From contig PKEB01000013.1 in the NCBI GenBank assembly GCA_002863125.1, positions 1-39,040 of the forward strand: a DNA stretch of 39,040 nucleotides. Reading direction: 5' to 3'. Source of the stretch: Flavobacteriales bacterium. GTDB taxonomy: Bacteria; Bacteroidota; Bacteroidia; Flavobacteriales_D; Sanyastnellaceae. Below the pieces are notes generated by a model. That model ran no database searches, had not been told where the DNA came from, and worked only from the letters and a program-made list of their open reading frames with translations. Positions 6,278 through 38,972 of this stretch are shown in pieces. Numbering within the stretch: the first letter of the stretch is position 1; each line of letters opens with the position of its first letter. The translations under genes and the position numbers were made by a program.

Positions 6278-6425
6278 CCCGGTGAATGTGCAATTTGTTC
6301 ATTATCAGAGGGTTTAGTTTAGGCAGGGATTTACACTTTTCGGTCAATTGGGTTGAAATTCGGGTGAGAACAAGGAATTAACCGACCAATTCAGGTTTGC
6401 CGGGAAAAATTTCTTTTGTGAAATA

Positions 6426-6456
6426 TTGGATTTCAGAAAAGACTCGACTACATTTA
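6426..6456 (+). promoter_or_regulatory. Putative promoter TTG-N20-TACATTTA
   Basis: TTG at 6426-6428 and TACATTTA at 6449-6456 are separated by exactly 20 nt. The same spacing and a near-identical -7 box precede the three downstream paralogues. Three of the four -7 boxes end in TTTA rather than the consensus TTTG. Confidence 0.5.
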
Positions 6457-6509
6457 TGGCGATATTGTAGAGTCTCCTCGATGAGAGCTACGGTTCTGCT
6501 GTTGGATAT

Positions 6510-6539
6510 GTGGCAAATTCGCCATCGTCTGATTGCCAC
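6510..6539 (+). repeat. Inverted repeat in the presumed 5' leader
   Basis: GTGGCAA (6510-6516) and TTGCCAC (6533-6539) form a perfect 7-bp stem with a 16-nt loop about 65 nt before the start codon. It could be an RNA hairpin in the leader or a protein-binding palindrome. No T-run follows, so it is not a terminator. Confidence 0.35.
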
Positions 6540-6602
6540 TTAAAGTCCTCGAAACGTCGGGGCATCCAAATTGTCTGAGAATTCTAACCAAAACCAAATC
6601 AA

Positions 6603-9600
6603 ATGTTTAACACGTTTAAAAAGTGTTGTGGCATCGTAGCGATGTTCGCACTTTATTTCTATTCGGCTCCCGCCGCCTTCGCGCAGTGTGATGCCAACGA
6701 GGTCACACTGACCTTGGTTTTTGACAACTATCCCAGCGAGACAGGCTGGTCCATCACGGATGCGGATGGTAATGAGGTTGCTGGTGCTCCACAGGGCACC
6801 GCTACTGAATCAGCTGTCGCCTGCCTGGCAGACGGTTGCTACACGCTGACCATGACAGACCAGTACAGCGACGGTATGTGCTGCTCTTATGGCGAGGGTA
6901 GTTACACGCTGACAGATGCAGACGGAAACGTGTTGGCATCCGGAGGTGACTTCGGTGCAAGCGAGTCGACTGATTTCTGCTTCGGCGATGCACCAGTTTC
7001 AGGCTGCACCGACGAGACTGCGTGTAACTACAACGCGGCAGCGACGGAAGACGACGGGTCTTGCGCTACCATCTCTATGACATTCACAGCTGCTGGAGAT
7101 TTCTTCACCAGCGAAACTGGTTACAACTTAGTTAATAATGATACCGGTGAAATCGTAGCTAGCATGGCAATCGGGACTTATGGTAACGGTGCTACCATCG
7201 TTGAAGACATGTGCGTCGCGGACAATGCATGCTACTACATTGTGGTTCTCGACGACTGGGGTGATGGATTCACCTCTGGTGAGTGGGACCTCTCGTACAA
7301 CGGAGCGGCTGTTGCAACAGGTGGAGGAAACTTCGGTACTTCTGAGACCTCGGACACCTTCTGCTTCGGACCTGGTTGTGATGATCCTGGAGCATCTAAC
7401 TTCTCTCCAACTGCTACAAGTAATGACGGATCTTGCGAATACTTCGGTTGCACCGACACAGCTGCTTGTAACTACAATGAAGCTGCAACAAATGACGATG
7501 GCTCTTGTGCCTACCAAGGCTTGACAATTGCTATTACGCCCGATAACTGGCCTGGTGAGACGTCCTGGACTTTGGTCAACGACTCTCTCGAGACGGTTGC
7601 TTCAGGTGATGTTGCAGGTGGGTATCTCTGTTTGCCAGAAGCGTGCTACACATTTACGATTTTCGATTCATTTGGTGACGGTATCTGCTGTGGCTTCGGT
7701 CAAGGTAGCTACACAGTTACGGATGGTGCAGGTCAAACATTGGCTGCTGGCGGAGAATTCGGTGCCTCTGAAGCTACTGACTTCTGCTTGCCTGCAATAA
7801 TCGGCTGTACAGACGAAATGGCGTGTAACTATGAGGGAGCCAATACAGATGACGGTTCTTGCGACTATTCATGCATTGGTTGCATGGATCAGACAGCCGC
7901 GAACTACGATCCAACAGCAACACAAGAGAACGAAGGTTCTTGTATCTATTGTGAAGCAGGTACATATGTTGCCATTGTTGAGATGTACGACTTAGGAGGT
8001 GACGGCTGGAACGGTGCTTCCTACTTCATGGATTCGTTCGATGGTGCGACTTCGGTGACCGGTACATGGGACGATGCTGACACGTACATTGCTGACGTAG
8101 CGATCGATTTCCACTGCATTCCTCTTGGTTGTTACCTCTTTACTACTGGTGGCGGTGCTGCAGATAATGAAATTGCAGTCGTGATTACTGACCAGTTTGG
8201 AACCGTCTACGGTGACCAGGTTGCTTCTGGCTACTACGGTCCACTTCCTCCCCCAATTGGATTCCCAAGCGGTGGATGGTTTGTTGACTTCGGTCTGCTC
8301 GGCACCTGTGATTTCGAAGGTTGCACAGATCCAGACTGTTTCAACTATAATATCTCAGCTACTGTCGACGACGGATCTTGTATCTGTCCTCCGCCAAACA
8401 ACGAAATCGCTGACGCGGAAGCTGTCGCTTGTGGTATGGAAGTTTCAGGTTCTTTAGCGAACGCATCAGATGAGGAAGGCGTTACCGGCGCATTTGCTGG
8501 AACAGTCGTCTCGACACCAGGTGTCTGGTACGAATTCAACGCTGATTCAGATTACCAAGTGTTTGCGAGCACATGTAATACTCCAACATCCATTTCTGGC
8601 TTCGCTGATCCTGTTGGAGACACAAAACTCCACGTTTTCGTATACAATGACGAGGGCGAATTGGAACCAATCGTTGGAAATGATGATGCGTGTGGTTTGT
8701 ACTCTTCAGTTGCCTTCTTGGCAGAAACTGGACAGAACTACTACATCTACGTTTCTAAGTTCTCTGCATTTGGTGCCGGTACGGAATTCTTGCTCGACAT
8801 CACTTGCGAGGTTTGTGATGACTTCCCATCTAATGATTACTGTGCAGATGCAACTCCACAATTGGACGATGTAACCTTCACAGGATCAGTATGCTGCTCG
8901 AACCCTGCATTGATTCCTGCCTTTGGTGGCACCGTCTACGGTGTATGGTTCACATTCAACAGCACAGATTTGGCTACAGGTTTGGATTACGATACATTCT
9001 ACTTTGACTTGACAAATGTTGATTCAGGTAACTTGTCGTTGACTATTTACCTAGATGGTGGTGATTGCGAAAGCATCGGTGCTTTTGTCGGTTGCTTGTT
9101 TACGGGCACATGTGCCGGTTCGATTGAATCGTTCATTGACCTCGTACCAAACACAGATTACTACTTCTTCGTGGGTACGACTGATCCTGCTGAATGCGGA
9201 ACGTTCGAATTCACTACAACGGGTATCTTCCTTGGCTGTACAGATCCAGCTGCGGATAACTACTTAGACTATGCGAACCAAGACGACGGTTCATGTGAGT
9301 ACTCAGTCGTTCCTGACAACGATTTGTGTGAAAACGCATTCGATCTTCCATGTAACGCAGGTTACCAGGAAGGTTCAATGGGTGGAGCAACGGGTACTGG
9401 CTCGCCAGTGGATTTGGGTAACCCTTGTGAAGCAGATGAGACCTCAGCGTATGTATACGCCGGCGGTGGAAGCTGGGACGGTGAAGTGTCTTGGAACATC
9501 ACGGATGCTGCGGGTAACATTTACAGCGGCGTAGCCGGTGAAACGTGGATTTGTGGCATGGCCGCAGGTGAATTCACTTTCGATGGCTTAGATTCCTTCG

Positions 9601-11237
9601 GCGACGGATGGAATGGTGCAGTAGCTAATGTGTTCTTCGAGAATAACCAAGTTATTGATAGCTTCACCTTCACAACTGGTAGCTCTGCTTCAACGACAGC
9701 TGTTGCTGAAGCCGATGGTACAGACGACCTCTCACCAGCAGGCGTGTGGTGGACGTTCGCGGGTACAGGTGAATACCACACGTTGAACACGTGCGGTTCT
9801 ATTATCGATACGCGTGTATGGGTGTACTCATCTCCATCTGCGTCTTGCGGAGTGTACGACCTCATCAACGACGTCAACGGCAACCCTGCCGATGTCGCTG
9901 CTTCATTCGAGGGCTGTGGATTCTTCGATCAAGACGACGCTTACGTCGAATTCATCTCTGATCCATCGTTGTACTACTTCGTATATGTCGGGTGGGACCC
10001 ATCGGCGTTCAACGGCAACGGTACGTACCAGGTTGAGTTGACTTGCGACCCTGTGGTCGAAGGTTGTACCATCACTGCGGCTTGTAACTATAATCCTGAT
10101 GTGAACGTTGAAACAAACGAAATGTGTGATTACGTTTCGTGTGCATGCGACGATAACCCAGGTGGTACAACTCTGTTGGTGAACATGTACGACTCGTTCG
10201 GTGACGGATGGACAGGAAGCAACTCTGGTTCTCCCGGTGGATACGAAATCTTCGATGCTGATGGTAACTCCGTTGCTGCGAACTACATCGACAACGCCTT
10301 CTACCAAGTGGATGAAGACAACGTCACTGGTCCGGAATACGGATTGGATGTATTGTGTGTCGACCCAGGTTGTTACACTTATGCGTTCACAGGGGCCTTC
10401 ATTTGGTTCGGTGAGCAGACATGGAGCTTGACAGATGGAGAAGGAAACCCAATCCTCGAAGGAGGCGCGAGCGGTTCTTTGGCTGTTGATATCTACCCCT
10501 TCTCTGCAGGTCCAGACGTCTTGTGTGGCTGCACGGATGACTTCGCTTGTAACTACGATCCGGATGCCACTACAGAAAACGGAACGTGTGAGTACGAAAC
10601 ATGTGCTGGATGTATGGATCCAGAGGCTTGTGATTACGACGAGACTGCGACCATCGATGACGGCTCTTGCTGCTACGGCACATGTGTTACCATCACGATG
10701 GAAGACAGCTTCGGTGACGGCTGGACAGGCTGCGACATTGTAATCACGGATCTCGATGGAAACGTCGTCATCAACACGTCCTTGACTTTGGATAATAGCG
10801 ACGGCTCGTTCTTGCAGGAGGTATACTGCATGGATGCAGGATGTTACATTTTGACAACAGGCGACGATACCTTCAACTCGGAACCTACATGGACGATTTC
10901 AGGTATCTTCGGCGGCGTAGTCTCCGGTGGTGAGCTCTACGGTCCTGAGTACATTAGTGTCGGTGGCAACAACTGTATCGAGGGTTGTGACGTTGCATGT
11001 GCATGTAACTACGATCCAGCTGCGAACATTCTCGTCATCGAGGAGTGTAACTTCGACGATTGTGCAGGATGTACGTATCCTGATGCAAGTAACTACGATT
11101 CAACTGCAAGCGTGGACGACGGAACATGTGAGTTCGACTTGTCGAACCCATGTCCAGCGGACATCAACGAAGATGGTTCTGTAACGACTGCTGACCTCCT
11201 GGTATTCTTGGGAGCGTTCGGTACGGTTTGCGAATAA
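6603..11237 (+). CDS. Giant secreted Cys-rich repeat protein with C-terminal dockerin-like tag
   Basis: This 1544-residue protein starts with a signal peptide ending APAAFAQ (about residue 28). It is built from three kinds of module. First, twelve Cys-rich units of about 21 residues of the form GCT-D-x-x-ACNY...DDGSC, from residue 134 to about 1509. Second, beta-rich modules with a DSFGDGW / SDGMCCSYG acidic loop, possibly Ca-binding, near 97, 365, 1025, 1200 and 1380. Third, three longer modules resembling pre-peptidase C-terminal domains (about 595-735, 740-875 and 905-1150). The end (about 1517-1544) reads PADINEDGSVTTADLLVFLG plus a final Cys: one EF-hand/dockerin-like loop-helix. No catalytic domain is visible. 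Codons favour GGT, AAC and TAC, as in highly expressed genes. It is probably a surface or matrix protein; the role is unknown. Confidence 0.85.
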   Translation: MFNTFKKCCGIVAMFALYFYSAPAAFAQCDANEVTLTLVFDNYPSETGWSITDADGNEVAGAPQGTATESAVACLADGCYTLTMTDQYSDGMCCSYGEGSYTLTDADGNVLASGGDFGASESTDFCFGDAPVSGCTDETACNYNAAATEDDGSCATISMTFTAAGDFFTSETGYNLVNNDTGEIVASMAIGTYGNGATIVEDMCVADNACYYIVVLDDWGDGFTSGEWDLSYNGAAVATGGGNFGTSETSDTFCFGPGCDDPGASNFSPTATSNDGSCEYFGCTDTAACNYNEAATNDDGSCAYQGLTIAITPDNWPGETSWTLVNDSLETVASGDVAGGYLCLPEACYTFTIFDSFGDGICCGFGQGSYTVTDGAGQTLAAGGEFGASEATDFCLPAIIGCTDEMACNYEGANTDDGSCDYSCIGCMDQTAANYDPTATQENEGSCIYCEAGTYVAIVEMYDLGGDGWNGASYFMDSFDGATSVTGTWDDADTYIADVAIDFHCIPLGCYLFTTGGGAADNEIAVVITDQFGTVYGDQVASGYYGPLPPPIGFPSGGWFVDFGLLGTCDFEGCTDPDCFNYNISATVDDGSCICPPPNNEIADAEAVACGMEVSGSLANASDEEGVTGAFAGTVVSTPGVWYEFNADSDYQVFASTCNTPTSISGFADPVGDTKLHVFVYNDEGELEPIVGNDDACGLYSSVAFLAETGQNYYIYVSKFSAFGAGTEFLLDITCEVCDDFPSNDYCADATPQLDDVTFTGSVCCSNPALIPAFGGTVYGVWFTFNSTDLATGLDYDTFYFDLTNVDSGNLSLTIYLDGGDCESIGAFVGCLFTGTCAGSIESFIDLVPNTDYYFFVGTTDPAECGTFEFTTTGIFLGCTDPAADNYLDYANQDDGSCEYSVVPDNDLCENAFDLPCNAGYQEGSMGGATGTGSPVDLGNPCEADETSAYVYAGGGSWDGEVSWNITDAAGNIYSGVAGETWICGMAAGEFTFDGLDSFGDGWNGAVANVFFENNQVIDSFTFTTGSSASTTAVAEADGTDDLSPAGVWWTFAGTGEYHTLNTCGSIIDTRVWVYSSPSASCGVYDLINDVNGNPADVAASFEGCGFFDQDDAYVEFISDPSLYYFVYVGWDPSAFNGNGTYQVELTCDPVVEGCTITAACNYNPDVNVETNEMCDYVSCACDDNPGGTTLLVNMYDSFGDGWTGSNSGSPGGYEIFDADGNSVAANYIDNAFYQVDEDNVTGPEYGLDVLCVDPGCYTYAFTGAFIWFGEQTWSLTDGEGNPILEGGASGSLAVDIYPFSAGPDVLCGCTDDFACNYDPDATTENGTCEYETCAGCMDPEACDYDETATIDDGSCCYGTCVTITMEDSFGDGWTGCDIVITDLDGNVVINTSLTLDNSDGSFLQEVYCMDAGCYILTTGDDTFNSEPTWTISGIFGGVVSGGELYGPEYISVGGNNCIEGCDVACACNYDPAANILVIEECNFDDCAGCTYPDASNYDSTASVDDGTCEFDLSNPCPADINEDGSVTTADLLVFLGAFGTVCE
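7002..11129 (+). repeat. Twelve dispersed Cys-rich GCT...DDGSC repeat units within the giant protein
   Basis: Units of 60-66 bp begin at 7002, 7374, 7446, 7803, 7878, 8319, 9234, 10062, 10527, 10608, 10983 and 11067. Each starts Gly-Cys and most end Gly-Ser/Thr-Cys. The units at 10062 and 10983 are degenerate (ending NEMC and IEEC). Several come as close pairs: 7374/7446, 7803/7878, 10527/10608 and 10983/11067. Two cysteines bracket each unit and many have a third inside, suggesting disulfide-locked acidic loops. Confidence 0.9.
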
Positions 11238-11258
11238 TCGCTTAATATCGAATAGTGA

Positions 11259-11288
11259 AAGGGCTCGGCTTCGGTCGGGCCCTTTTTT
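11259..11288 (+). terminator. Strong intrinsic terminator after the giant repeat protein
   Basis: AAGGGCTCGGC and GTCGGGCCCTT pair over 11 bp, including two G-T pairs, around a TTCG tetraloop. The stem is followed by an unbroken T-run to 11288. It ends transcription of the 6603 gene before the next promoter. Confidence 0.9.
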
Positions 11289-11317
11289 GTTCATGTCTCT
11301 TGCCTGTCGTATCTTAA
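11286..11317 (+). promoter_or_regulatory. Putative promoter TTTG-N20-TATCTTAA
   Basis: TTTG (11286-11289) overlaps the terminator T-run and is followed 20 nt later by TATCTTAA (11310-11317). Transcription would start near 11324, favouring the ATG at 11354 as the start codon. Confidence 0.45.
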
Positions 11318-11353
11318 AATGAGATGGACTACAATAGCGGATACAGCCGAAAG

Positions 11354-13087
11354 ATGCATGTAAGGTGTTTTCTGATGGTGTTTGCAGTTATCATACACGG
11401 CGTTGGATTCGCGCAGCTTGTGGTCGATAGCATTGGCTCCAATTTGGTTTCCGATCATACCGGGGGGTATTTGGGTACAGGAGTGAGCTTTGCTGATTTT
11501 AATGGCGACGGTATTGACGATTTGAGTTTTGGCCACCACAGCGGGGACTTGAAGTTCTACATCGGTGAGAACGATGGTTTCGTCCCTATTGACCTGAACT
11601 TGGAGACGCCGAATGCAGAATCAAAAGGCCTGCTCTGGGCCGATATTGACAATGATGGCGATCAGGATCTATTTACTACGTTCCGTATGGCTCCAAATAA
11701 ACTATGGATCAACCAAGGTGATATGGTCATGGTCGACGTCAGTGCGACGTGTGGTATCGCACAAGACAATCGCCGGAGTTTTGGCCCGGCCTTCGGGGAC
11801 TTTGACAGGGATGGGCTCTTGGACCTGTTTGTATCTACATACGGGTATCCAGTGGATATGCCGCAAGGCAACGAATTGTACCGGAATTTGGGTGATGGCC
11901 AATTTGAAGACGTTACGGAAGCCATGGGGATGGGCGGAATGAATTTGCAGAGTTTTCAGGCATCATGGATAGATGCAGACCGCGACGGCTGGTTGGACCT
12001 GCATGTGGTGCGCGATCGACTTATTTACCCGAACCTGTTCTACCATAACAAAGGATTAGAAACGGGGGAAGCAACATTCGTGGAAGAGGCCGCATTGCGG
12101 GGGGTGGACGTTGCGATCAATTGTATGTCCACGAGCCCGCATGATTTTGATCGCGATGGCGACTTAGATTTGTTCGTAGCCGGGGGGTTGGAGGGCAACG
12201 AACTCCTCGAAAACACTGGCGATGGATTTTACACCAACGTGACGACTGAGCTGGTAGCCATGTATGAGGTGTGCTGGTCGGGTCAATGGTTGGATATCAA
12301 TGCAGATGGCTGGGAAGAACTGCACGTAGCGACAGGCCTAGCGGATTATGTCGATTACCCAGCGGTGTTGATGAATAACCCCAATGAACCGGACGAGTTG
12401 TTTCTAAATGCAGGAGGAAATTTTATGCCGCCGGGTACCTTGTTCCAAGCGGAAAGTACCCTTACATATGCAACGGCCACGGGGGACTATAACGGCGATG
12501 GTTTCATTGATTTTGTGTCCCATAAGATTGGTACGTCACCAGAAATCCGCCAGAGCATCCCCAATGGCAATAACGCCATGCTCATCCTGCTGCACGGCAC
12601 GGAAAGTAATGCTGACGCGGTAGGTTCGAAGATTGAATTGTGGGCCGGATCTGATTACTGGTACCGGGAGACTTATTGTGGAGAAGGCTATCTGGCCCAA
12701 AACAGCCGCTGGGAACACTTCGGCTTGGCGAATCACACAACCGTTGATTCCATCAAGGTCCACTGGCCCCAAGGGTCCATGGAAACGTGGTACAATGTTG
12801 AGGTGCAAGCCACATTGGAACTGACCGAAGGTATTTCATGTGCGCCGAATTGTTTGGGTTGCACGTACCAAGGGGCGTGCAACTATGACCCCGATGCCTC
12901 TACCGATGATGGTTCGTGTGATGTGTCCTGCCTCATCGCCGACTTGGTGTGCGGTACAGGCTTGATTTGGAATCTGGAGACAGCCCAATGCGAAAGTCCC
13001 TGCCCAGCTGATCTCACCGGCGATAATCAGGTGGACGTGGCCGATTTGTTGGTGATGCTTGGTGCGTTTGCTTCGTTCTGCCCCTAA
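11354..13087 (+). CDS. CRTAC1-like beta-propeller secreted protein, paralogue 1
   Basis: This 577-residue secreted protein starts with signal peptide MHVRCFLMVFAVIIHGVGFAQ. FG-GAP/VCBS-type propeller repeats follow, each with a Ca-loop of the form DxDxDGxxDL: DFNGDGIDDL, DIDNDGDQDLF, DFDRDGLLDLF, DADRDGWLDLH, DFDRDGDLDLF, DYNGDGFIDF. Next comes an ASPIC/UnbV domain (GSKIELW, GEGYLAQNSRWEHFGL, DSIKVHWPQG), one Cys-rich GCTYQGACNY...DDGSC unit, and a terminal dockerin-like segment CPADLTGDNQVDVADLLVML. An in-frame ATG at 11324 would add 10 residues before the signal peptide. It is the first of three tandem homologues. Such propellers usually bind ligands or partners; no enzyme motif is visible. 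Confidence 0.85.
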   Translation: MHVRCFLMVFAVIIHGVGFAQLVVDSIGSNLVSDHTGGYLGTGVSFADFNGDGIDDLSFGHHSGDLKFYIGENDGFVPIDLNLETPNAESKGLLWADIDNDGDQDLFTTFRMAPNKLWINQGDMVMVDVSATCGIAQDNRRSFGPAFGDFDRDGLLDLFVSTYGYPVDMPQGNELYRNLGDGQFEDVTEAMGMGGMNLQSFQASWIDADRDGWLDLHVVRDRLIYPNLFYHNKGLETGEATFVEEAALRGVDVAINCMSTSPHDFDRDGDLDLFVAGGLEGNELLENTGDGFYTNVTTELVAMYEVCWSGQWLDINADGWEELHVATGLADYVDYPAVLMNNPNEPDELFLNAGGNFMPPGTLFQAESTLTYATATGDYNGDGFIDFVSHKIGTSPEIRQSIPNGNNAMLILLHGTESNADAVGSKIELWAGSDYWYRETYCGEGYLAQNSRWEHFGLANHTTVDSIKVHWPQGSMETWYNVEVQATLELTEGISCAPNCLGCTYQGACNYDPDASTDDGSCDVSCLIADLVCGTGLIWNLETAQCESPCPADLTGDNQVDVADLLVMLGAFASFCP

Positions 13088-13109
13088 AGATGTAGCTCGA
13101 GACTTTCAG

Positions 13110-13140
13110 TTGGAAATATTGGCATTACGGGTTATTTTTA
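13110..13140 (+). promoter_or_regulatory. Putative promoter TTG-N20-TATTTTTA
   Basis: TTG (13110-13112) and TATTTTTA (13133-13140) are exactly 20 nt apart in the short gap between paralogues 1 and 2. The leader ends in GGTTTCCA one base before the ATG, as it does for paralogue 3. Confidence 0.5.
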
Positions 13141-13177
13141 ATATACCTGTGAGTAATGCAACCAAACTGGTTTCCAT

Positions 13178-14992
13178 ATGCTGCATGCTCAAAAAATAGC
13201 GACGCTCTTCAATTTGTTTCAGCACTCCCAAGGGAGGATGCTGGCGGCTATGTCGCTATTGGGGATGCTCACAGCGTTGAACAGTGCAGCCCAAGCCCCT
13301 TTTGTGGACGTGAGCAATGAGCTGGACATTTGGACGGACCACACGGGTGGTTACCTAGGAGCTGGCCTGAGCATGGCGGACTTCAACGGCGATGGACTGG
13401 ACGATTTGAGCATTGCCCACCATTTGGGCGAACTGCAATTTTACTTAGGCGATGGAGTAGGATTCACTCCACACGATATGGAGCTGCCCTACTACCCACA
13501 CGAAGCTAAGTGCATACTTTGGGCGGACATCGACAACGATGGGGACCAAGACTTGTTCATCACGTACCGATTAGCGGCTAATAAGCTCTACATCAATCAA
13601 GGGGACCTCGTTATGACAGATGTGAGCGCCGAATGCGGCATTGACCAAACTATTCGACGTAGCTATGGTGCGTGCTTCGGTGATTACGACAATGATGGAC
13701 TGCTCGATCTTTTTATTGCTAACTACGTCAGTGGCCAAGATCCGCCGTTCAATGAATTTTATCGTAATCTGGGTAGCGGGAATTTTGAAGAGGTAACTTT
13801 TGACTTTCCGATGGGAGAGCCTCTGCATCAGAATTTTCAGGGCCAATGGGTGGACTTCGATGAGGACGGTTTGTTGGATTTGAATCTCATAAGGGATCGA
13901 TTGTGTTTCGAGAACAAGTATTACAAGCAGACGGAGGACGGTAACTTCTTCAACGATGCGCCCGATATGGGATTGGATTATTCCATCAATGCCATGTGCA
14001 CGGCCACCACGGATTTTGACCGAGATAACGACCAAGACTTGTACATTTCCGCAGGGATGTTTGAAGGCAACCACTTCGTCGTGAATGATGGGACAGGGGC
14101 GTTTGAATTGCACGAACCTGTCGAAGGGGATAGCTTAACTGTCAATCTTACTAGCTGGGCGGGGACGTGGTTTGACATGGATAATGATGGCTGGGAGGAC
14201 CTGCACGTATGCACCGGATTTTCGACCTACACGATATGGCCAGGAGTTTTCGAGAGTTACCCTTCTATACCCGACAAATTCTTCCACAACGAGGGTGGTG
14301 TTTTCTACGAAGATGCTTCCGGATTCTTTGATGTAGCGGCCTTGTCGTTTGCGGCGGTAACGGGTGATTACAACCTCGACGGATTCCCAGATTTGGTTAA
14401 TAACCACGTGGGAGTATACGCCCAAGTGTTAAAAGCCATCCCTAATGATAACGGGTGGATCAAAATCAGGCTTGAAGGCACAGTTAGCAACCGGGACGGC
14501 ATCGGAGCGAAAATCCGCGTGTACCGAAATGGTCTGCTAGGGTACCACATGACCACATGCGGAGAGAATTATTTAGGTCAAAACAGCCGTTGGGAGCACT
14601 TTGGATTAGGTCTTGCGACCGGCATTGACAGCATCACAGTCCATTGGCCCTCCGGTATTCTCGATAAGTACTACTATCTGCAACCTAACCAAAGTCTTGT
14701 CTTTGTGGAAGGGGAAGGGGAGTCTGGGCTGAATCCGTGTGCATTGGGAGCTTGCTCTGGATGCACGTACCCGGAGGCTTGCAATTTCGACAGCAGCGCT
14801 AACGAAGAGGATGGTTCATGTGACTTTTCATGCCTGATTCAGCAATGGGCCTGCGGAGATGGGTTGATATGGGATGCGGCGATAGCTCGATGTGTGCCGT
14901 CGTGTTCGGCTGATCTGAATGGTGATGAAATGGTCGGCGTGGAAGATTTGTTGCTTTTACTGCAAGCCTTTGGAGTTCCCTGCCCCGACTGA
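13178..14992 (+). CDS. CRTAC1-like beta-propeller secreted protein, paralogue 2
   Basis: This 604-residue protein is homologous along its length to its neighbours. The signal peptide is long, with a hydrophobic core AAMSLLGMLTALNSAAQA at about residues 23-40. Propeller repeats carry DFNGDGLDDL, DIDNDGDQDLF, DYDNDGLLDLF, DFDEDGLLDLN, DFDRDNDQDLY, DMDNDGWEDLH and DYNLDGFPDL. The ASPIC/UnbV domain shows GAKIRVY, GENYLGQNSRWEHFGLG and DSITVHWPSG. The tail has GCTYPEACNF...EDGSC, a CGDGLIW...C linker, and the terminal CSADLNGDEMVGVEDLLLLL. The start is supported by the promoter and by a GGTTTCCA leader shared with paralogue 3. An internal ATG nearer the hydrophobic core is an alternative. The function is unknown beyond secreted propeller. 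Confidence 0.85.
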   Translation: MLHAQKIATLFNLFQHSQGRMLAAMSLLGMLTALNSAAQAPFVDVSNELDIWTDHTGGYLGAGLSMADFNGDGLDDLSIAHHLGELQFYLGDGVGFTPHDMELPYYPHEAKCILWADIDNDGDQDLFITYRLAANKLYINQGDLVMTDVSAECGIDQTIRRSYGACFGDYDNDGLLDLFIANYVSGQDPPFNEFYRNLGSGNFEEVTFDFPMGEPLHQNFQGQWVDFDEDGLLDLNLIRDRLCFENKYYKQTEDGNFFNDAPDMGLDYSINAMCTATTDFDRDNDQDLYISAGMFEGNHFVVNDGTGAFELHEPVEGDSLTVNLTSWAGTWFDMDNDGWEDLHVCTGFSTYTIWPGVFESYPSIPDKFFHNEGGVFYEDASGFFDVAALSFAAVTGDYNLDGFPDLVNNHVGVYAQVLKAIPNDNGWIKIRLEGTVSNRDGIGAKIRVYRNGLLGYHMTTCGENYLGQNSRWEHFGLGLATGIDSITVHWPSGILDKYYYLQPNQSLVFVEGEGESGLNPCALGACSGCTYPEACNFDSSANEEDGSCDFSCLIQQWACGDGLIWDAAIARCVPSCSADLNGDEMVGVEDLLLLLQAFGVPCPD

Positions 14993-15013
14993 AGACGTTC
15001 GCAAAGAGCCATA

Positions 15014-15044
15014 TTGGAATTGATGTGCTTCCGCGTTATATTTA
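15014..15044 (+). promoter_or_regulatory. Putative promoter TTG-N20-TATATTTA
   Basis: TTG (15014-15016) and TATATTTA (15037-15044) are exactly 20 nt apart. This gives a leader of about 35 nt to the ATG at 15086. Confidence 0.5.
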
Positions 15045-15085
15045 ATTAATCAGTGTTTTGAAAGTGCTCCTCTCAAGGTTTCCAC

Positions 15086-16981
15086 ATGAATCGTACCTTT
15101 CAATTTGCTTCAAATGGCAACTGGTGGACGTTGCTCTATCGGATGAAGGGTCGCGCCCGATTGTCGGGAGTAATTAGGAAGACTGTTTCTTTCATAGGGG
15201 CGACCATTCTGGCTTTCGGGGGCTATGCACAATTTACCGATGTAAGTAATCAGTTGTCCCTTGCGACCCATCACTATGGCGGGTTCTTAGGTGCGGGTGT
15301 CAGTTTTGCCGATTTCAATGGCGATTACATCGATGACTTGACCTTTGCACATCACGAAGGCAATCTGAAATTCTATGCCGGTACAGGTGATGAATCGGGT
15401 TTTGTTGAGGTAGATTTTGGGTTAAGCGACTACGAGGAGGAGGCTAAAATGGTGCTTTGGGGTGACGTCGATAATGATGGCGATCAGGATTTGTTTGTAT
15501 CGTACCGGCACGCCTCGAACAAGCTTTACCTAAACAATGGGGATGGATTTCTGCAGGACGTCAGCACGACATCAGGACTATCTCAGTCAGAATTCAAGAG
15601 TTTTGGGGCGTGTTTTGGAGATTACAATAACGACGGCTACCTTGACTTATTCGTCAGCAATTACGCAGGCCCTGGTGATACAAACCAACAAAATGAACTC
15701 TACGCGAACAATGGCGATGGAACGTTTACGGAAGTGGCTGCTGCTGCCGGGCTAATCGAAAGTGGAGTGCAGTCCTTCCAAGGCCAATGGACAGATTTCG
15801 ACGGCAATAATTTGCTCGACTTACATGTCATTCGAGATCGTCCGCAATACGCGAATTATTGGTACGAGCAGCAGCCTGACGGGGCGATATTTTTGTTCGT
15901 CGAAAAGGCGGAGCAAATTGGACTTGATATTGGGATTAATTGCATGTCCACGTCGGTCGGTGACTTTGATAACGACTTAGACCCAGACGTTTATCTCACG
16001 GCGTTTCCCGGCGATTTGAATTGGCTCATGATCAATGATGGGTATGGGTTTTTCGGCACAGAAGATTTGAATGGCAATGAGCCAATGAACGATCTGCAAG
16101 TGGATGCTACCTGCTGGGCGGCGAATTGGCTCGATGTCGACAACAACGGATGGGAGGACCTTCACGTAGCCGCCAGCTACAGTGTTTTCACCAATTACCC
16201 GGCTATCCTTGAGATGTTTCCAGATGTGCCAGATGCTTTTTTTTACAATACGGATGGCATGTTTACCGCTTCGGAAGAGGCCTTGTTTCAAACAGAAAGC
16301 ACCCTATCCTTTTCCACGGCAACGGGTGATTACGACCGCGATGGCTTCCCAGACCTTGTCTCGCACTGCGTGGGCGAATTTGCTCAGGTCTTGCGGGGAA
16401 CACCGAATGACAATCACTGGATCAAAGTCCACTTAGAAGGCACCGTAAGCAACCGAGACGGCACAGGAGCCAAAATCATCCTGCATCCGACCACAGGGCC
16501 TTCCCAATTGCGAACAACATATGCAGGAGAGAATTACCTCGGCCAAAACAGCCGGTGGGAAAGTTTCGGGCTGGGCGAAACGGCCTCCATCCTTTCCATG
16601 GAGGTGCACTGGCCAAGCGGCATTGTGACATCCCACAGCAACTTAGCGGTGGACGCCCACTGGGCCCTGAAAGAGGACGGAACAGCCGTGCAACTTTGGG
16701 AACAAACAGTAGACCCATGTGAGACCGGAGGCACCTGTCCCGGATGCACGTATGAAGAAGCATGCAATTATTCTTCAGCAGCGACCTTGGACGACGGTTC
16801 GTGCACGTTCGGCTGCTACGCCACTCCGGCTGCCTGCGGACCGGGAACGGCTTGGGAGGATGCCCTCGAAATGTGTATTGCAGATTCCTCGTGTCCGTAC
16901 GATTTCGACAACAGCGGTACGGTGACCATTGCCGATCTGCTCATCTTCCTGGTGAACTTCAATCAAACGTGCCCGGAGTAG
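15086..16981 (+). CDS. CRTAC1-like beta-propeller secreted protein, paralogue 3
   Basis: This 631-residue protein has an unusually long N-terminal region before the hydrophobic signal core (SFIGATILAFGGYAQ, about residues 35-50). The in-frame ATG at codon 20 (MKGRARL) would give a more ordinary signal peptide. Propeller Ca-loops include DFNGDYIDDL, DVDNDGDQDLF, DYNNDGYLDLF, DFDGNNLLDLH, DFDNDLDPDVY, DVDNNGWEDLH and DYDRDGFPDL. The ASPIC/UnbV region has GAKIILH, GENYLGQNSRWESFGLG and EVHWPSG. The tail carries GCTYEEACNY...DDGSC and the dockerin-like end CPYDFDNSGTVTIADLLIFL. Its last 23 bp overlap, tail to tail, the 3' end of the M28 peptidase gene on the other strand. It is the third tandem copy. 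Confidence 0.85.
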   Translation: MNRTFQFASNGNWWTLLYRMKGRARLSGVIRKTVSFIGATILAFGGYAQFTDVSNQLSLATHHYGGFLGAGVSFADFNGDYIDDLTFAHHEGNLKFYAGTGDESGFVEVDFGLSDYEEEAKMVLWGDVDNDGDQDLFVSYRHASNKLYLNNGDGFLQDVSTTSGLSQSEFKSFGACFGDYNNDGYLDLFVSNYAGPGDTNQQNELYANNGDGTFTEVAAAAGLIESGVQSFQGQWTDFDGNNLLDLHVIRDRPQYANYWYEQQPDGAIFLFVEKAEQIGLDIGINCMSTSVGDFDNDLDPDVYLTAFPGDLNWLMINDGYGFFGTEDLNGNEPMNDLQVDATCWAANWLDVDNNGWEDLHVAASYSVFTNYPAILEMFPDVPDAFFYNTDGMFTASEEALFQTESTLSFSTATGDYDRDGFPDLVSHCVGEFAQVLRGTPNDNHWIKVHLEGTVSNRDGTGAKIILHPTTGPSQLRTTYAGENYLGQNSRWESFGLGETASILSMEVHWPSGIVTSHSNLAVDAHWALKEDGTAVQLWEQTVDPCETGGTCPGCTYEEACNYSSAATLDDGSCTFGCYATPAACGPGTAWEDALEMCIADSSCPYDFDNSGTVTIADLLIFLVNFNQTCPE

Positions 16982-18392
16982 GCAGGTGCTGGTCGAGCAT
17001 GTAGACCGCGGCAGCAAAGGTGGCGGCCCCGAGTTCGAGCTCGCGCTTGTGCACGTTCTCAAAGACATCCTGCGAGCTGTGGTGAAAATCAAAATACCGC
17101 TGCCCGTCGGGACTCAATCCCATCATCGCCGGCCGGGGCTCCAGTACCTTCAATGGTCCAATGTCCACACCTGCACCCCCGCGTCGAAACTGATGAATAT
17201 TGTAAGGGTCAAACAACGAGTTCCATGATTGGATGAGCGCTGTGGCTTCGTCGCCGGCATCTATGCGGAATCCCCTCGGGACGAATCCCCCGGCATCTGA
17301 TTCGAGCGCTGCGAGGTACCGCAAATTGGTCGTAGTGTGGTCTTCTTGGGCGCGCGCAGCGTAGGTCTTGCCGCCGCGATTGCCGTTTTCTTCATTGATG
17401 AACAAAACGAATCGAATGGTCCGTCGTGGGGTGTAGCCGAGCGCCTTCAAGATGCGTAGCACCTCAAGTGTGTGCACAATGCCTGCGCCGTCGTCGTGGG
17501 CGCCTTCCCCGATGTCCCAGGAGTCGAGGTGACCACCCAGCGTGATGATTTCATTGGGCAACTCGCTTCCGCGCCATTCGCCGATGACATTGCCTTGTTC
17601 CACGTCGGGGAAGGCCCGACAGTTCATTTCCAGCACCACTTCCAAGTCCGGGTTCCCTTTGAGCTGATTCGCGAGCCAGCTGGCGTCCACCGTTGAAATG
17701 GCCGCACTGGGGACGCTGTCGATGCCTTCTTCGTAGTACATGGCGCCTGTATGCGGCAACGTATCCAATGCGTGTGTCATGGAGCGGACCAGTGCGCCAA
17801 TGGCACCAGCCTTCGCCGCAGCGATGGCGCCACGGCCGCGCTGATCCACGGCACCCCCATAGGCGGCTCCGGTGTTTATGAGCACGGGATCCATGGGGCG
17901 ATTGAACAGCACCAACCGCCCTTCCACTTCGTCCGGCGGCAATTGACTGAGCTGTTCCAACGATTTGACGTGCACAAGGCGCGCGCGCAGAGGTTGGTCA
18001 TTCGGGGTGCTGACTGATCCGCCGAGTGCTGTGACGCGCAGCGGGTGCTCCTCCCCATTGATGATGGCCGTGGCTTGCGCCACAGTCCCCCGTGTCCAAC
18101 TCGGGACCATCACGGGCATGACCCAGACGGAATCGGCACCGTACCGTTCGAGCACGCCTTGGCCCCATTGCATCGCGTCGAAGGCGCTTTGTGAGCCGCT
18201 CAGCCGATGGCCAACGTCCTTGGTCAACTGGCGCAAGTTCGCATGCGCCTCCCCTCGGGCGAGTGCTTCGTCATAAATCGCTCGGATGTAGGTGCTGTCA
18301 CCGGTGTGCTGCAGGTGCAGTTCTGGAGTTTGTCCATGGGTGAAAGGGGTGAGGCCGCCGAGAACAGCCAAGAAGATGAGGATGCTGCGCAT
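16959..18392 (-). CDS. Secreted M28-family zinc metallopeptidase
   Basis: This 477-residue exported aminopeptidase/carboxypeptidase-type enzyme starts with signal peptide MRSILIFLAVLGGLTPFTHG. A protease-associated (PA)-like insert lies at about 130-250, followed by the M28 catalytic domain. Zinc-site residues are visible in order: H288 (LGGHLDSWD), D300 (GAHDDGAG), E334-E335 (FINEENG; the first Glu is the likely base), D366 (ESDAGG), and H437 or H438 (FDFHHSSQD). All ligands are present, so it should be active on peptides in the periplasm or outside. It lacks a T9SS C-terminal domain and the dockerin-like tag of its neighbours. It is divergent from the nitroreductase gene and overlaps paralogue 3 by 23 bp at the 3' end. 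Confidence 0.92.
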   Translation of the reverse strand: MRSILIFLAVLGGLTPFTHGQTPELHLQHTGDSTYIRAIYDEALARGEAHANLRQLTKDVGHRLSGSQSAFDAMQWGQGVLERYGADSVWVMPVMVPSWTRGTVAQATAIINGEEHPLRVTALGGSVSTPNDQPLRARLVHVKSLEQLSQLPPDEVEGRLVLFNRPMDPVLINTGAAYGGAVDQRGRGAIAAAKAGAIGALVRSMTHALDTLPHTGAMYYEEGIDSVPSAAISTVDASWLANQLKGNPDLEVVLEMNCRAFPDVEQGNVIGEWRGSELPNEIITLGGHLDSWDIGEGAHDDGAGIVHTLEVLRILKALGYTPRRTIRFVLFINEENGNRGGKTYAARAQEDHTTTNLRYLAALESDAGGFVPRGFRIDAGDEATALIQSWNSLFDPYNIHQFRRGGAGVDIGPLKVLEPRPAMMGLSPDGQRYFDFHHSSQDVFENVHKRELELGAATFAAAVYMLDQHLPTPGTFD

Positions 18393-35179: not shown

Positions 35180-35805
35180 GGCTCAACGGATTGGTATTCC
35201 AGCAGGAACGGGGGTTCGACATTCTGGCGCAGGCCCAACTCGGCAATGTTTTGTTCGACCGTACTCTGCTGAAGCTGGGTTTCAAATTCTGCCTTGAGGG
35301 TCTTGTACTCAGCGCTGAGTTCTTCGAGTTGGCGCTTGGTTTGAAGCTTTTCGCGTTCCAACCGCTCAAACTGGTAGCCCATGGCGATGTACGCGATGAA
35401 CAGGACGCTCACGAAGATGAGGTAGGGGATGTGGCGGGTCACGCCTTCGCGGGTTAGGAATTCGCCGCTTAGGATGTCCCGAACAATGGGGCCGATCGAA
35501 TTCTGTGTGCGGCGCGCGGCACGCTCTTGCGGGCTGCGTTGCTTGCGGCGTTTGAACCAGCGGGTGCGTGTTGGGCGAGCGCCGGTGGTAGCCGACTCGC
35601 CTTCCGTCAGGATGCGGTTGCGCGGTTTGGCGGCCTTGGCGGTACGTTGGGCTTTTTTGCGGGAAGCCGCTTTGGCTTGCTGTTCCGCCAGCTTGCGCTT
35701 TTGCTCCTCTTGAGCGGTGATTTCCGCAGCCGTCAGTACGCGGTTGCGTGGGCCGGAATTTGGCTTGGCCTTCGGTTTGCGGAGGAAGGAGAACAACTTC
35801 TTCAT
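35176..35805 (-). CDS. ftsL: FtsL-like division protein with long basic N-terminal extension
   Basis: This is a 209-residue bitopic protein. Residues 1-120 are a Lys/Arg/Ala-rich cytoplasmic region. Residues ~125-141 (IPYLIFVSVLFIAYIA) are the single membrane helix. Residues 146-185 form a short coiled coil (ERLEREKLQTKRQLEELSAE), the interaction module of FtsL. The fold pattern and the position between rsmH and ftsI identify it. The N-terminal extension is much longer than the short tail of classical FtsL and contains two copies of PRNR(V/I)LT followed by A/E-rich sequence. The start MKKLFSFLRK at 35805 overlaps the rsmH stop by 4 nt; the longer frame to 35946 is a shadow of rsmH. Confidence 0.88.
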   Translation of the reverse strand: MKKLFSFLRKPKAKPNSGPRNRVLTAAEITAQEEQKRKLAEQQAKAASRKKAQRTAKAAKPRNRILTEGESATTGARPTRTRWFKRRKQRSPQERAARRTQNSIGPIVRDILSGEFLTREGVTRHIPYLIFVSVLFIAYIAMGYQFERLEREKLQTKRQLEELSAEYKTLKAEFETQLQQSTVEQNIAELGLRQNVEPPFLLEYQSVEP

Positions 35806-36752
35806 GCGGCCAAAGAATTGATCTCGTCCAAGGACAAGGCGGTTCGGGTAGCCACCCGCAAGCGAGCGCTGCGCGATCGGGGGTTGCGGGCCTGTTCTTC
35901 TTCGTCGGCGACAACGGCTTTGCGGTTGAGCGGGGCAAATGGGCACAAGGCGGCGCCCTTGAGGTCGCGTTTGACGTGGTCTTCGAAGTTGCCAGAACGC
36001 ATGAAGTGCTTCACCAGGCGGTCTTCCAGGCTGTGGTAGGAGATGACCGCCAACCGACCGCCTTCTTCCATCAGGTGAATCGTGGATTCGAGCAGTGCCT
36101 TGAGGGCGCCCAGTTCATCGTTGACTTCGATGCGAAACGCTTGAAAGACCTGAGCATGGAACTGGTTCTCCTTGCCTCTGGGGGCGAGGTGTTGGGTGGC
36201 TTCCATCAAATCGCCTGTCCGGGCAATGCGCCGGTCTTCGCGTACGCGGGCAATGGCGTGGGCGACTTTATCGGGCCGCTTCAGTTCGCCGTACAAGCGG
36301 AAAATCCGTGTCAAATCTTCGACGGTATAAGTCGCCGCGATATCAGCAGCGGACAGCCCGTCTTGCTGGTTCATTCGCATGTCCAAAGGCGCATCGAACC
36401 GGGTGGAGAATCCGCGCGCGCCCTCGTCGAATTGGTGGGAGCTAACGCCCAGGTCGGCCAGCAATCCATCGATGCGGCGGACACCGTTGAGGCGGAGGAA
36501 GTTGCGCGCGTGCCGGAAGTTTTCGGGGATTAGCGTGAACCGTTCGTCCGGCAACGCGTTGGCGTGTGCATCGGCGTCTTGATCAAATCCGAACAGGCGA
36601 CCGTTCGCGTCCAGCGCATCGAGGATGAGGCGGGAATGACCGCCACCGCCGAACGTCGCGTCCACGTAGATTCCGCTCGGAAGCTGAGGGGCACCAATCC
36701 CTGCGATGCTAGCGTCGGCCAAAACAGGAACGTGGTAGGTGCCGGGATTCAT
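35802..36752 (-). CDS. rsmH: 16S rRNA (cytosine-1402-N4)-methyltransferase RsmH
   Basis: This 316-residue SAM-dependent methyltransferase, formerly MraW, modifies C1402 in the ribosomal decoding centre. It opens YHVPVLADASIAGI. The SAM-binding DATFGGGGHSRLIL (about 31-44) is followed by GFDQDADAHANA, then DGLLADLGVSSHQFDEGARGFS (split by position), which is diagnostic. The end shows LAVISYHSLEDRLVKHFM, then NPRSRSARLRVATR. The length is normal. It follows mraZ by 3 nt. Confidence 0.97.
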   Translation of the reverse strand: MNPGTYHVPVLADASIAGIGAPQLPSGIYVDATFGGGGHSRLILDALDANGRLFGFDQDADAHANALPDERFTLIPENFRHARNFLRLNGVRRIDGLLADLGVSSHQFDEGARGFSTRFDAPLDMRMNQQDGLSAADIAATYTVEDLTRIFRLYGELKRPDKVAHAIARVREDRRIARTGDLMEATQHLAPRGKENQFHAQVFQAFRIEVNDELGALKALLESTIHLMEEGGRLAVISYHSLEDRLVKHFMRSGNFEDHVKRDLKGAALCPFAPLNRKAVVADEEEQARNPRSRSARLRVATRTALSLDEINSLAA

Positions 36753-36755
36753 GGA

Positions 36756-37241
36756 TTAATTCTCGTTGTTGGGTTCGAGGTCCTGGCGGACTTCTTCGGC
36801 GAGGGTGCCGAAATCAAAATCTTCGGCGTCATCGAGGACGCTCTTGTCGTAGCGGGCCTTGCTCCAGAGTTCAATCTTCTCGCCGAGGCCGGATACGATG
36901 ATCTCGTTGTCAGCAGGCAGTTGAATGCCGGCGTGCTCGAGCAGCAGGGCGGGAATGTTGATGCGGCCGGATCCGTCGAGTTCGACGTGGGTGGCCCCCT
37001 TCATGAATTTGCGTTGGAACAGCTGGTGCTTGCGGTTGTACCGGCTCAACCGGGACATCTCGCGGTTCACTTTATCCCATTCGGGCTGCGGGTAAACCAC
37101 CAAGCACCCTTCAAAAATGTCGCGGTTAATGACCAGCCCATTGTGCAGCACGGTTTCCAGCTGCTTTCGCAAGCGCGCAGGGAACATCAGGCGCCCTTTG
37201 GCGTCGATTTTACACGTGTATTCTCCGAGCAGATTGAGCAT
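36756..37241 (-). CDS. mraZ: Transcriptional regulator MraZ
   Basis: This 161-residue regulator of the dcw operon has two SpoVT-AbrB-like DNA-binding modules: GEYTCKIDAKGRLMFPA (about 6-22) and HVELDGSGRINIPALLLEHA (about 83-102), each with the Dxx(K)GR core. MraZ forms a ring-shaped oligomer that binds tandem boxes upstream of its own gene. The start at 37241 (MLNLLGEYT) matches the family; the upstream ATG at 37289 lies inside the operator and is not used. It is the first gene of the operon, so it probably represses its own promoter (see the operator at 37265-37309). Confidence 0.96.
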   Translation of the reverse strand: MLNLLGEYTCKIDAKGRLMFPARLRKQLETVLHNGLVINRDIFEGCLVVYPQPEWDKVNREMSRLSRYNRKHQLFQRKFMKGATHVELDGSGRINIPALLLEHAGIQLPADNEIIVSGLGEKIELWSKARYDKSVLDDAEDFDFGTLAEEVRQDLEPNNEN

Positions 37242-37256
37242 GATCGTTTGGAATAT

Positions 37257-37264
37257 CAAAATTA
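37257..37264 (-). promoter_or_regulatory. -7 element of the mraZ/dcw promoter
   Basis: On the minus strand this is TAATTTTG, a perfect TAnnTTTG, 15 nt before the mraZ ATG. It directly abuts MraZ box 5, so bound MraZ would cover the polymerase site. Confidence 0.6.
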
Positions 37265-37309
37265 CCCAAGATTTCCCACTTTCTCCCACCTTATGACACT
37301 TTCTCCCAC
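37265..37309 (-). promoter_or_regulatory. MraZ operator: five boxes with exact 10-bp period
   Basis: Read on the minus strand from 37309: GTGGG, GTGTC (degenerate), GTGGG, GTGGG, TTGGG. They start exactly 10 bp apart, so they lie on one face of the helix. Tandem GTGGG-type boxes with this period are the known MraZ targets in other bacteria. Three of the five are perfect. The spacer AGAAA is repeated after two of them. Confidence 0.85.
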
Positions 37310-37468
37310 TTTGTGGAAAAGTTTTGAAGACGGAAGTAGGGATAAGTCAATTGGGCCGGGGATTTGCCGGATTCTGGCTTCTACGGCGGATTTTCGCTAT
37401 CAATACGTTTTCAACAGGTGATGTGAACAGCGTGCAGGGGCCTGTGGGCGAATGCGCTCGGTTTGTTC

Positions 37469-37476
37469 GACCTTTG
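37469..37476 (+). promoter_or_regulatory. Weak -7-like element for the hydrolase gene
   Basis: GACCTTTG differs at one base from TAnnTTTG, and TTTGC follows the same pattern as at 18437. It lies 17 nt before the ATG at 37494. It is weak without a -33 element. Confidence 0.25.
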
Positions 37477-37493
37477 CCTCCTAATTGGAATCC

Positions 37494-37727
37494 ATGGATC
37501 AACCTGCCATCATTGAACGCGGCCCGTACAAGTATGTCGAAGCCGGCGAGGGCGAGCCCCTGATTGTGCTCCACGGTTTGTTCGGCGCCTTGAGCAATTT
37601 CAAGGACGTCTTCAGCCATTTCTCCGGTCGCTTCCGGGTCATCATCCCGATGCTGCCCATTTATGAATTGCCCATGCGCAAGACGAGCGCCAAAAGTTTG
37701 TCCGAGCACATCGAAGGGTTCGTGGCG
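37494..37727 (+). pseudogene. Alpha/beta hydrolase, N-terminal fragment cut by chimeric junction
   Basis: From the ATG at 37494 (MDQPAIIERGPYKYVEAGEG) about 78 residues read as the start of an alpha/beta-hydrolase: the strand EGEPLIVLHGLFG with the oxyanion HG, then SNFKDVFSHFSGRFRVIIPMLP and PIYELPM, each split by position. The family would continue into the nucleophile elbow G-x-S-x-G. That motif is absent because the frame passes, around 37727, into unrelated eukaryote-like sequence. I therefore regard this as the 5' part of an intact bacterial gene whose remainder is missing from the assembly, not a genuine broken gene. It is divergent from mraZ. In-frame TTG at 37485 is an inferior start. 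Confidence 0.7.
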
Positions 37728-37752
37728 ATATCGGACAGCGGAAGGTCGGGCG
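37722..37752. other. Inferred chimeric junction, bacterial to eukaryotic sequence
   Basis: On the left, the protein frame is alpha/beta hydrolase (SLSEHIEGFVA). On the right, from about ARKVLLTHPSGATCEIYTKG, it is a mutarotase-family protein. GC content, codon choice and low-complexity content change across the same point. The exact base cannot be fixed from one sequence. Confidence 0.7.
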
Positions 37753-38972
37753 CGAGGAAAGTTTTATTGACGCACCCATCCGGAGCGACGTGCGAGATTT
37801 ACACGAAAGGCGCGTCGGTCGCGTCGTGGACGTTACCGAACGGAGGGGAAGTTTTGTTCACGCCAGACTTTTCAGACTTTAAGAACGAAGCGCCGAGAGA
37901 CGCCGGGTTGAGCTATAACTTCCCGCACTGGGACGGGTTCGATTTGCATTCGATGAAGAAAAAAGGAGAAGGAGAAAACGAAGAAGAAGAAAACAAAGGA
38001 GATGCAAACGAAATCGACTCGAAAGAAGATTTTAACATTCGACAGATGAACTTTGATATTTTGGATACCGGGATAAGAGAGTTGTGGAATCCGGAAGACA
38101 ACACGTACACGGCGAACCCGTACGTGACGATTTATACGACGGACGACGACCAATCGAGGAAGAAGTGGAACGACAACGCGTTTCAAGTCACTCTTACTTT
38201 TACTCTCGAGTTTGACGCGTTGAATATATCTCACTCGGTTGAGAACAAGAATAATAACATAGATAATGGAGAGAGCAGCAGCACTAGTAGCAACAACAAC
38301 AACAACGTAGACGAATCATCATCAAATCTCGATTTCGAGTACGCGAGCGGGTATCGAGGCCACGTGAGAGTGGCAGATTTAACCGCGGTTCCACCGCGAG
38401 CGTATTATTTAGGCTTAGACGATTGCGTGTATTTCGACATGACCGACACCGAGAAAACTGGAGGAGATCCGCAGGTTAAGTTTACAAAAGATTTGGACGA
38501 GTACGACGAAAAGTGTTTCACTCTGAAAGAGAAAACGGAAAGAGTGTACGCCAACGTGAAGAGAGACTCGACGATGTTGGAAATAGGAACGGGCTCATCC
38601 ATCGTCATCGAAGATTACGATAGATTTGCCATTGGATACGACTTTCCGGACGAAGAAACTGCGATGAAGCAAACGGGAAACTGGCACGATCGCGCGGTAT
38701 TTTCGTACTGGAAAAGTAAAGAGAAGAAGAACGACGAGTCGTACCGATGGTTCTCCGGTCTCGGGTTTGGGAACATCACAAAGTTGGTCAAATTAAAAGC
38801 TGGGCAAACGCAAACGCACACGGCGCGATTAGTCGTTCGGGATGCAACGTTGTCTGAAAACATCATCAAAGAGCGGGACGCAAAACGATCGTACGAAGCA
38901 GTGGAGAGAGAATTTTCCAAGAGAGAAGGTTACAACATGGAAGGCTCGGAGCTACCGCAAGACTTTCAATAA
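37728..38972 (+). CDS. Eukaryote-like glucose-6-phosphate 1-epimerase family protein, N-terminus missing
   Basis: About 414 residues read as a galactose-mutarotase-superfamily protein of the glucose-6-phosphate 1-epimerase (YMR099c/YeaD, plant apospory-associated C) type. Matching strings are KVLLTHPSGATCEIYTKGAS (family: KVVLxxxxGxxAEVYxxGAxVxSW), SWTLPNGGEVLF, RGHVRVADLTAVPPRAYYLG, DEKCFTLKEKTERVYANV, DRAVFSYWKSKEKK and VKLKAGQTQTHTARL. Two low-complexity inserts (Glu/Lys-rich coding 37963-38010; Asn/Ser-rich 38245-38325) are typical of protists. The His expected in the H-T-Y motif and the late catalytic Glu are not seen where I align them, so activity is doubtful. The frame is intronless to the TAA at 38972. 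No bacterial start is needed if it is the 3' part of an algal gene. Confidence 0.65.
   Translation: MSDSGRSGARKVLLTHPSGATCEIYTKGASVASWTLPNGGEVLFTPDFSDFKNEAPRDAGLSYNFPHWDGFDLHSMKKKGEGENEEEENKGDANEIDSKEDFNIRQMNFDILDTGIRELWNPEDNTYTANPYVTIYTTDDDQSRKKWNDNAFQVTLTFTLEFDALNISHSVENKNNNIDNGESSSTSSNNNNNVDESSSNLDFEYASGYRGHVRVADLTAVPPRAYYLGLDDCVYFDMTDTEKTGGDPQVKFTKDLDEYDEKCFTLKEKTERVYANVKRDSTMLEIGTGSSIVIEDYDRFAIGYDFPDEETAMKQTGNWHDRAVFSYWKSKEKKNDESYRWFSGLGFGNITKLVKLKAGQTQTHTARLVVRDATLSENIIKERDAKRSYEAVEREFSKREGYNMEGSELPQDFQ

Follow-up and report, generated by a model that had tools for sequence, protein, structure and literature searches.

Chimerism has been described in marine MAGs. Those portions of the GUNC paper considered here deal with chimeric contigs and bins, in which distant taxa occur within one published bin (PMC8201837). 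In the sections we draw on from a second study, GUNC at its default settings flags about 11% of that study's MAGs as chimeric, and CheckM, which misses much of the chimerism, differs widely from other tools (PMC11247762). Here we analyze the end of a contig from a marine Flavobacteriales MAG (G000), where a piece of a bacterial gene is almost certainly joined to a foreign piece inside one open reading frame.

The window is the whole of this contig, C20, with a length of 39,040 bp; the MAG has 35 contigs and 2.27 Mb, with a listed completeness of 98.72% and a listed contamination of 0.02%. The features around the join are collected in Table 1. Farther inside C20 lie frames that we take to encode FtsZ, FtsA, Mur proteins, MraY, and a penicillin-binding protein. 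The window also has a stretch of lower GC (5800-17000) that encodes a 1544-aa protein and several secreted-type proteins of about 600 aa, in which ACNYxxxAxxDDGSC-like repeats are abundant. Judging from the window alone, we did not count this low-GC stretch (about 5-16 kb) as foreign.

Table 1 Features at the end of contig C20 and at the tip of contig C15.
Feature	Position	Strand	Evidence or remark
rsmH/mraW methyltransferase gene	35802..36752	-	Pfam Methyltransf_5 (MraW family), 288.9 bits
mraZ gene	36756..37289	-	Pfam MraZ, 94.8 bits; listed GTG start is provisional
Alpha/beta hydrolase gene, 5' 234 nt (78 codons)	37494..37727	+	98% DNA identity to L003/L004
Chimeric join (almost certain)	37727..37728		Similarity to relatives ends; gene resumes (nt 462) at C13 base 1
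Foreign frame, 414 codons + stop, probable aldose-epimerase fold	37728..38972	+	Pfam match below cut-off; hhalign E 1e-5
AT-rich foreign flank, 68 nt, reaching the contig end	38973..39040		Sequence; contig end
Probable second chimeric end	G000:C15:59145-61932 (L071:213-3000; L178:11146-13933)		GC down to 0.37

The reading frame in question opens with an ATG at 37494 and runs uninterrupted for 492 codons, its stop ending at 38972; a TTG upstream, at 37485, is the alternative listed start. From 36701 onward, including the mraZ region, the DNA is 98% identical to the loci of the two nearest relatives, L003 and L004 (97.96% over 1,027 bp, 36701-37727), and the match to them ends at 37727. In a base-by-base alignment, the match breaks directly after GTGGCG, that is, after the residues ...HIEGFVA. 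An earlier note, written from the sequence of this DNA, had claimed that the frame begins as a bacterial hydrolase beside mraZ and loses its hydrolase identity after HIEGFVA. The first claim agrees with the DNA match to relatives and with the Pfam assignment of MraZ, and the second now has an exact boundary, with 37727 as the last base common to L003 and L004. Residues 1-79 alone score 13.9 bits against a Pfam cut-off of 25.8, the fragment being too short to pass; we assign it to the alpha/beta hydrolases, as a likely member, because the full-length protein of the relative L004 matches Abhydrolase_1 (64.2 bits vs a cut-off of 25.8).

The join cuts the hydrolase ahead of its nucleophile motif. 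Indeed, the GNSLGG of the relatives is missing from the 492-aa ORF, which has no GxSxG-type motif at the family position, and the mutarotase-like part has no start codon of its own at the join; both losses had been pointed out in the note. It had also described a sharp drop in GC. Lower GC is present, but the join is not where it sets in: GC content is still 55.6% over the initial 223 foreign bases, and only from 37951 does it fall, to 44.6% in the remainder. At third codon positions, the foreign frame has a GC of 0.59, compared with 0.72-0.77 in four bacterial frames.

A search with the whole ORF matched the hydrolase part in 54 of 60 relatives. These matches start within the first 15 hydrolase residues, and none of the 54 relatives has a match past residue 114. 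The longest matches end at residues 114 (G030), 92 (G024), and 87 (G035), which we take to be alignment spill-over; some of the weaker matches, spanning about 40-50 residues, are probably to other hydrolases. A second genome with the same fused gene, the observation that would have favored a real gene in the view of the note, was found nowhere among the 54 matching relatives, and the foreign part is present in 0 of 21 genus mates.

The named near relatives that carry the hydrolase are themselves marine Flavobacteriales MAGs. Protein identity over residues 1-79 is 96-99% in the nearest three and 99% for G003 and G013. The hydrolase part matches in 18 of the 21 genus mates, and in all 18 loci (L003-L020) the frame continues through GNSLGG, with L013 cut later by the end of its contig; in each of the seven genus loci displayed in full, the intact hydrolase has 258 aa. 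The hydrolases near mraZ in two marine MAGs (L091, CALGDB010000209.1; L092, DJYV01000079.1) correspond to C20 over the first 78 residues and run on to 258 aa with GNSLGG, whereas the C20 copy is cut, with its remainder on another contig. Three genus mates (G004, G011, and G015, the last listed as 96% complete) gave no hydrolase match in the whole-ORF search, so the locus is established in only part of the genus, which counts against reading the join as an artefact. A hydrolase of this Flavobacteriales group also occurs, at 78% and 70% identity, on two contigs (L108 and L127) titled as a 'Chryseobacterium gleum' MAG, a species label that looks doubtful.

Where is the rest of the gene? We searched the MAG's own contigs with the intact locus of a relative (L004:1501-2700) and found two places: C20:37494-37727, which matches query positions 1-234 at 98%, and C13:1-739, which matches positions 462-1200 at 96%. 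Base 1 of C13 falls inside the hydrolase gene. At an offset of 461, 290 of the first 300 bases of C13 agree with the relative's gene, and the contig stays collinear with L004 across the 739 bp; the gene ends in ...DARGIGKAG and is followed by a GTPase gene (Pfam MMR_HSR1), the same neighbor as in the relative, which we take to be EngB/YihA-like. C13 is bacterial from base 1 and carries no foreign base. Most of the bacterial gene is thus recovered in two pieces, on C20 and on C13, and C20 carries the mutarotase-like part as an extension of its loose end. The remaining 227 bp of the hydrolase gene are in neither C20 nor C13, and a DNA search of the MAG, in which C35 reads as N, did not find them. 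The chromosome would most likely run from C20 (to 37727) through about 227 unassembled bp of the hydrolase gene into base 1 of C13. The note had judged an assembly or library join to be the most likely origin of the frame, and finding the remainder of the hydrolase and its downstream neighbor on C13, in the same MAG, strengthens that judgment.

The order of C20, foreign piece, gap, and C13 would by itself be equally compatible with a genuine insertion accompanied by the loss of 227 bp, and this compatibility counts against the artefact reading. The failure of the DNA search (C35 being N) to find those bases elsewhere in the MAG speaks for such an insertion. On such an account, foreign, eukaryotic DNA entered the hydrolase gene in one population with a 227-bp target deletion, leaving the gene broken and the insert inert. 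We consider this very unlikely: the assembly must then have broken twice, once within the insert and once precisely at its far edge, such that C13 has no foreign base; nothing similar is seen in the 21 genus mates; and the probable, unrelated join on C15 described below suggests that the assembly is prone to errors of this kind. We likewise give very little credence to its biological corollary, a living marine Flavobacteriales population in which nuclear DNA of eukaryotic picoplankton has recently disrupted the mraZ-adjacent hydrolase.

What does the foreign part encode? The 414 residues encoded by 37728-38969 include acidic and Asn/Ser-rich low-complexity inserts. Pfam Aldose_epim (PF01263) matches residues 11-53 only, with 26.3 bits (E 5.9e-6; 25.6 bits for the whole ORF), under the cut-off of 27, and in NCBIfam neither the ORF nor either of its parts has a match over cut-off, the matches present being far below. 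AlphaFold2, run on the 414-aa part with no alignment, gave a mean pLDDT of 32.5. We also compared the foreign part by profile with four sequences of the glucose-6-phosphate (G6P)-epimerase type from the same phylum; hhalign aligned 254 columns with an E-value of 1e-5 and a probability of 82%. One of the four, L210 (L207 carries this protein too), matches the yeast hexose-6-phosphate mutarotase 2ciq with an E-value of 3.9e-36. Its invariant H148 and E251, which we take to be the catalytic pair of hexose-6-phosphate mutarotase, are paired with Arg and Gly of the foreign part, in an alignment whose register is uncertain at 17-24% identity.

These comparisons point to a divergent protein of the aldose-epimerase fold, for which 'epimerase' would be valid at the fold level only. 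The foreign part resembles the hexose-6-phosphate mutarotase/aldose 1-epimerase family (yeast YMR099C, 2ciq; PF01263) in fold along most of its length; unlike that family, it has long low-complexity inserts, a Pfam score below cut-off, and replacements of the His and Glu. Because these conserved residues are replaced (at 17-24% identity), the foreign part is probably not an active epimerase. The description 'glucose-6-phosphate-epimerase-like' in the earlier note therefore holds for the fold, given the hhalign result, but not beyond it, given the sub-threshold Pfam score, the lack of an NCBIfam match, and the replaced His and Glu. A profile including the foreign part and the G6P-epimerase-type sequences found PnsB2, a photosynthetic NDH subunit (PDB 7eu3, 9grx) and mutarotase-related chloroplast protein, which may be a member of the mutarotase family that is not an enzyme. 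PnsB2 is also found by one G6P-epimerase-type sequence alone and is not found by the foreign part alone in a phmmer search of the PDB; we make no case that the foreign part is PnsB2. A search of G000 for the Aldose_epim family gave no match at E <= 0.001. At the same threshold, a PF01263 aldose epimerase turned up in just one of the 20 relatives searched (G009:C15:23434-24414, L090), at a locus that also has what we take to be a galactokinase-like frame.

A single uninterrupted frame with a start codon is what one would expect of a functional fusion, in which inter-domain transfer linked a hydrolase N-terminus to a mutarotase domain and the two are made as a single protein. Against it, 180 of the 258 hydrolase residues are missing, as is the nucleophile motif, the conserved family His and Glu are absent from the epimerase part, the fusion is found in no other genome searched, and the rest of the hydrolase gene is on C13; such a fusion is extremely improbable. 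Most likely, the fused ORF does not correspond to a real protein, and it should not be annotated as one because the end of the hydrolase gene sits on another contig in the same bin.

We return to the join as a chimeric contig end. At the gap in the hydrolase gene, the loose end of C20 would have been joined to an unrelated piece of 1,313 bp from the same sample, either through an error of the assembler or through a chimeric molecule in the library. That the frame stays open across the join may be luck, with a chance of about one in three for two coding stretches in the same direction. The donor was probably a eukaryotic genome. Judged by eye, the Asn/Ser/Glu-rich inserts within the domain and the AT-rich flank past the stop resemble protist coding sequence, which makes a eukaryotic or algal origin plausible. 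The same kind of join with a giant virus or another microbe as donor, in place of an alga, would be compatible with the lack of homologues of the foreign part in genome_contigs, in viral_contigs, in the PDB (phmmer, nothing at E <= 1; at E <= 10, three weak, unrelated chains), and in the genus mates. The scans of genome_contigs and viral_contigs returned 27 and 13 pattern stretches, respectively, none of them confirmed, with a reach of close relatives only. We think such a donor unlikely, given the protist-like look of the inserts and flank and, within that reach, the absence of a viral match.

The ends of the other contigs bear on how the assembly was made. We examined 69 contig tips, 68 of them readable (C35 is all N). 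Five tip pairs share 93 31-mers each, meaning identical or reverse-complement ends; other pairs share 176, 77, 37, 13, and 2. In this comparison, the two tips of C33 overlap each other because the contig is so short, and the same holds for C34. The two 123-bp ends of C22 (37,461 bp; L043, L077) are exact reverse complements of each other, a match that does not extend to 124 bp, and represent either a terminal inverted repeat or a fold-back in the assembly graph, not a circular overlap. The other four pairs, compared at 123 bp only, are C1/C16, C12/C26, the starts of C28/C29, and the ends of C25/C29, as is expected of de Bruijn edges; these shared tips hint at a short-read de Bruijn assembly. 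In such an assembly, unrelated sequences can be united only by a read that is itself chimeric or when sequences are merged at a later stage.

When the 68 readable tips are ranked by tetranucleotide deviation, the end of C15 comes first, the start of C23 second, and the end of C20 third. The C23 tip is only slightly more deviant than that of C20, and we set it aside as a foreign candidate, given Cys/Asp repeats that look, by eye, like those of the large secreted-type proteins in the window. The last 1,200 bp of C15 have a GC of 0.366. Upstream in this contig, DNA homology to the genus ends at about 58850, and the last 3 kb have a DNA-level match in 0 of 21 genus mates. A 363-aa frame begins there as a secreted-type protein, its residues 1-64 being 41% identical to the start of a 598-aa frame in G013, on a contig collinear with C15. 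From about residue 58-80 it becomes an SLC13-type permease (Pfam CitMHS, TrkA_C, Na_sulph_symp): residues 58-363 are 54% identical to SLC13 permeases in Vibrio plasmid copies, and in two further Vibrio records the alignment starts at residue 28, with 49.6% identity. Across 13 order-level relatives, the best-matching place in each genome reaches 28-38% identity. The permease is followed by an APS kinase (Pfam) whose best matches in the plasmid collection are 57-68% identical, several of them in Gammaproteobacteria; the last frame has no Pfam match and is related to fliB of Salmonella and Pantoea (19.5-22.5% identity). By these protein similarities, the C15 tip is probably another join that keeps the frame, here with a gammaproteobacterium-like piece. 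This case is less certain than that of C20, where the remainder of the interrupted gene was located. That both joins are in frame counts against the artefact reading.

The importance of these observations lies mainly in clean annotation. In a MAG with the completeness and contamination listed above, one contig is clearly, and a second probably, joined internally to sequence from another organism, and each join gives an open, in-frame 'fusion protein' that is liable to be read as an inter-domain fusion or transfer. Like the cases in the portions of the literature considered here, C20 brings sequences from distant taxa together inside one published bin (PMC8201837; PMC11247762). In contrast to the example given in the latter, where an entire archaeal contig of 16 kbp sits among bacterial ones (PMC11247762), the join in C20 lies within one contig and within one reading frame, and the foreign piece is 1.3 kb long.
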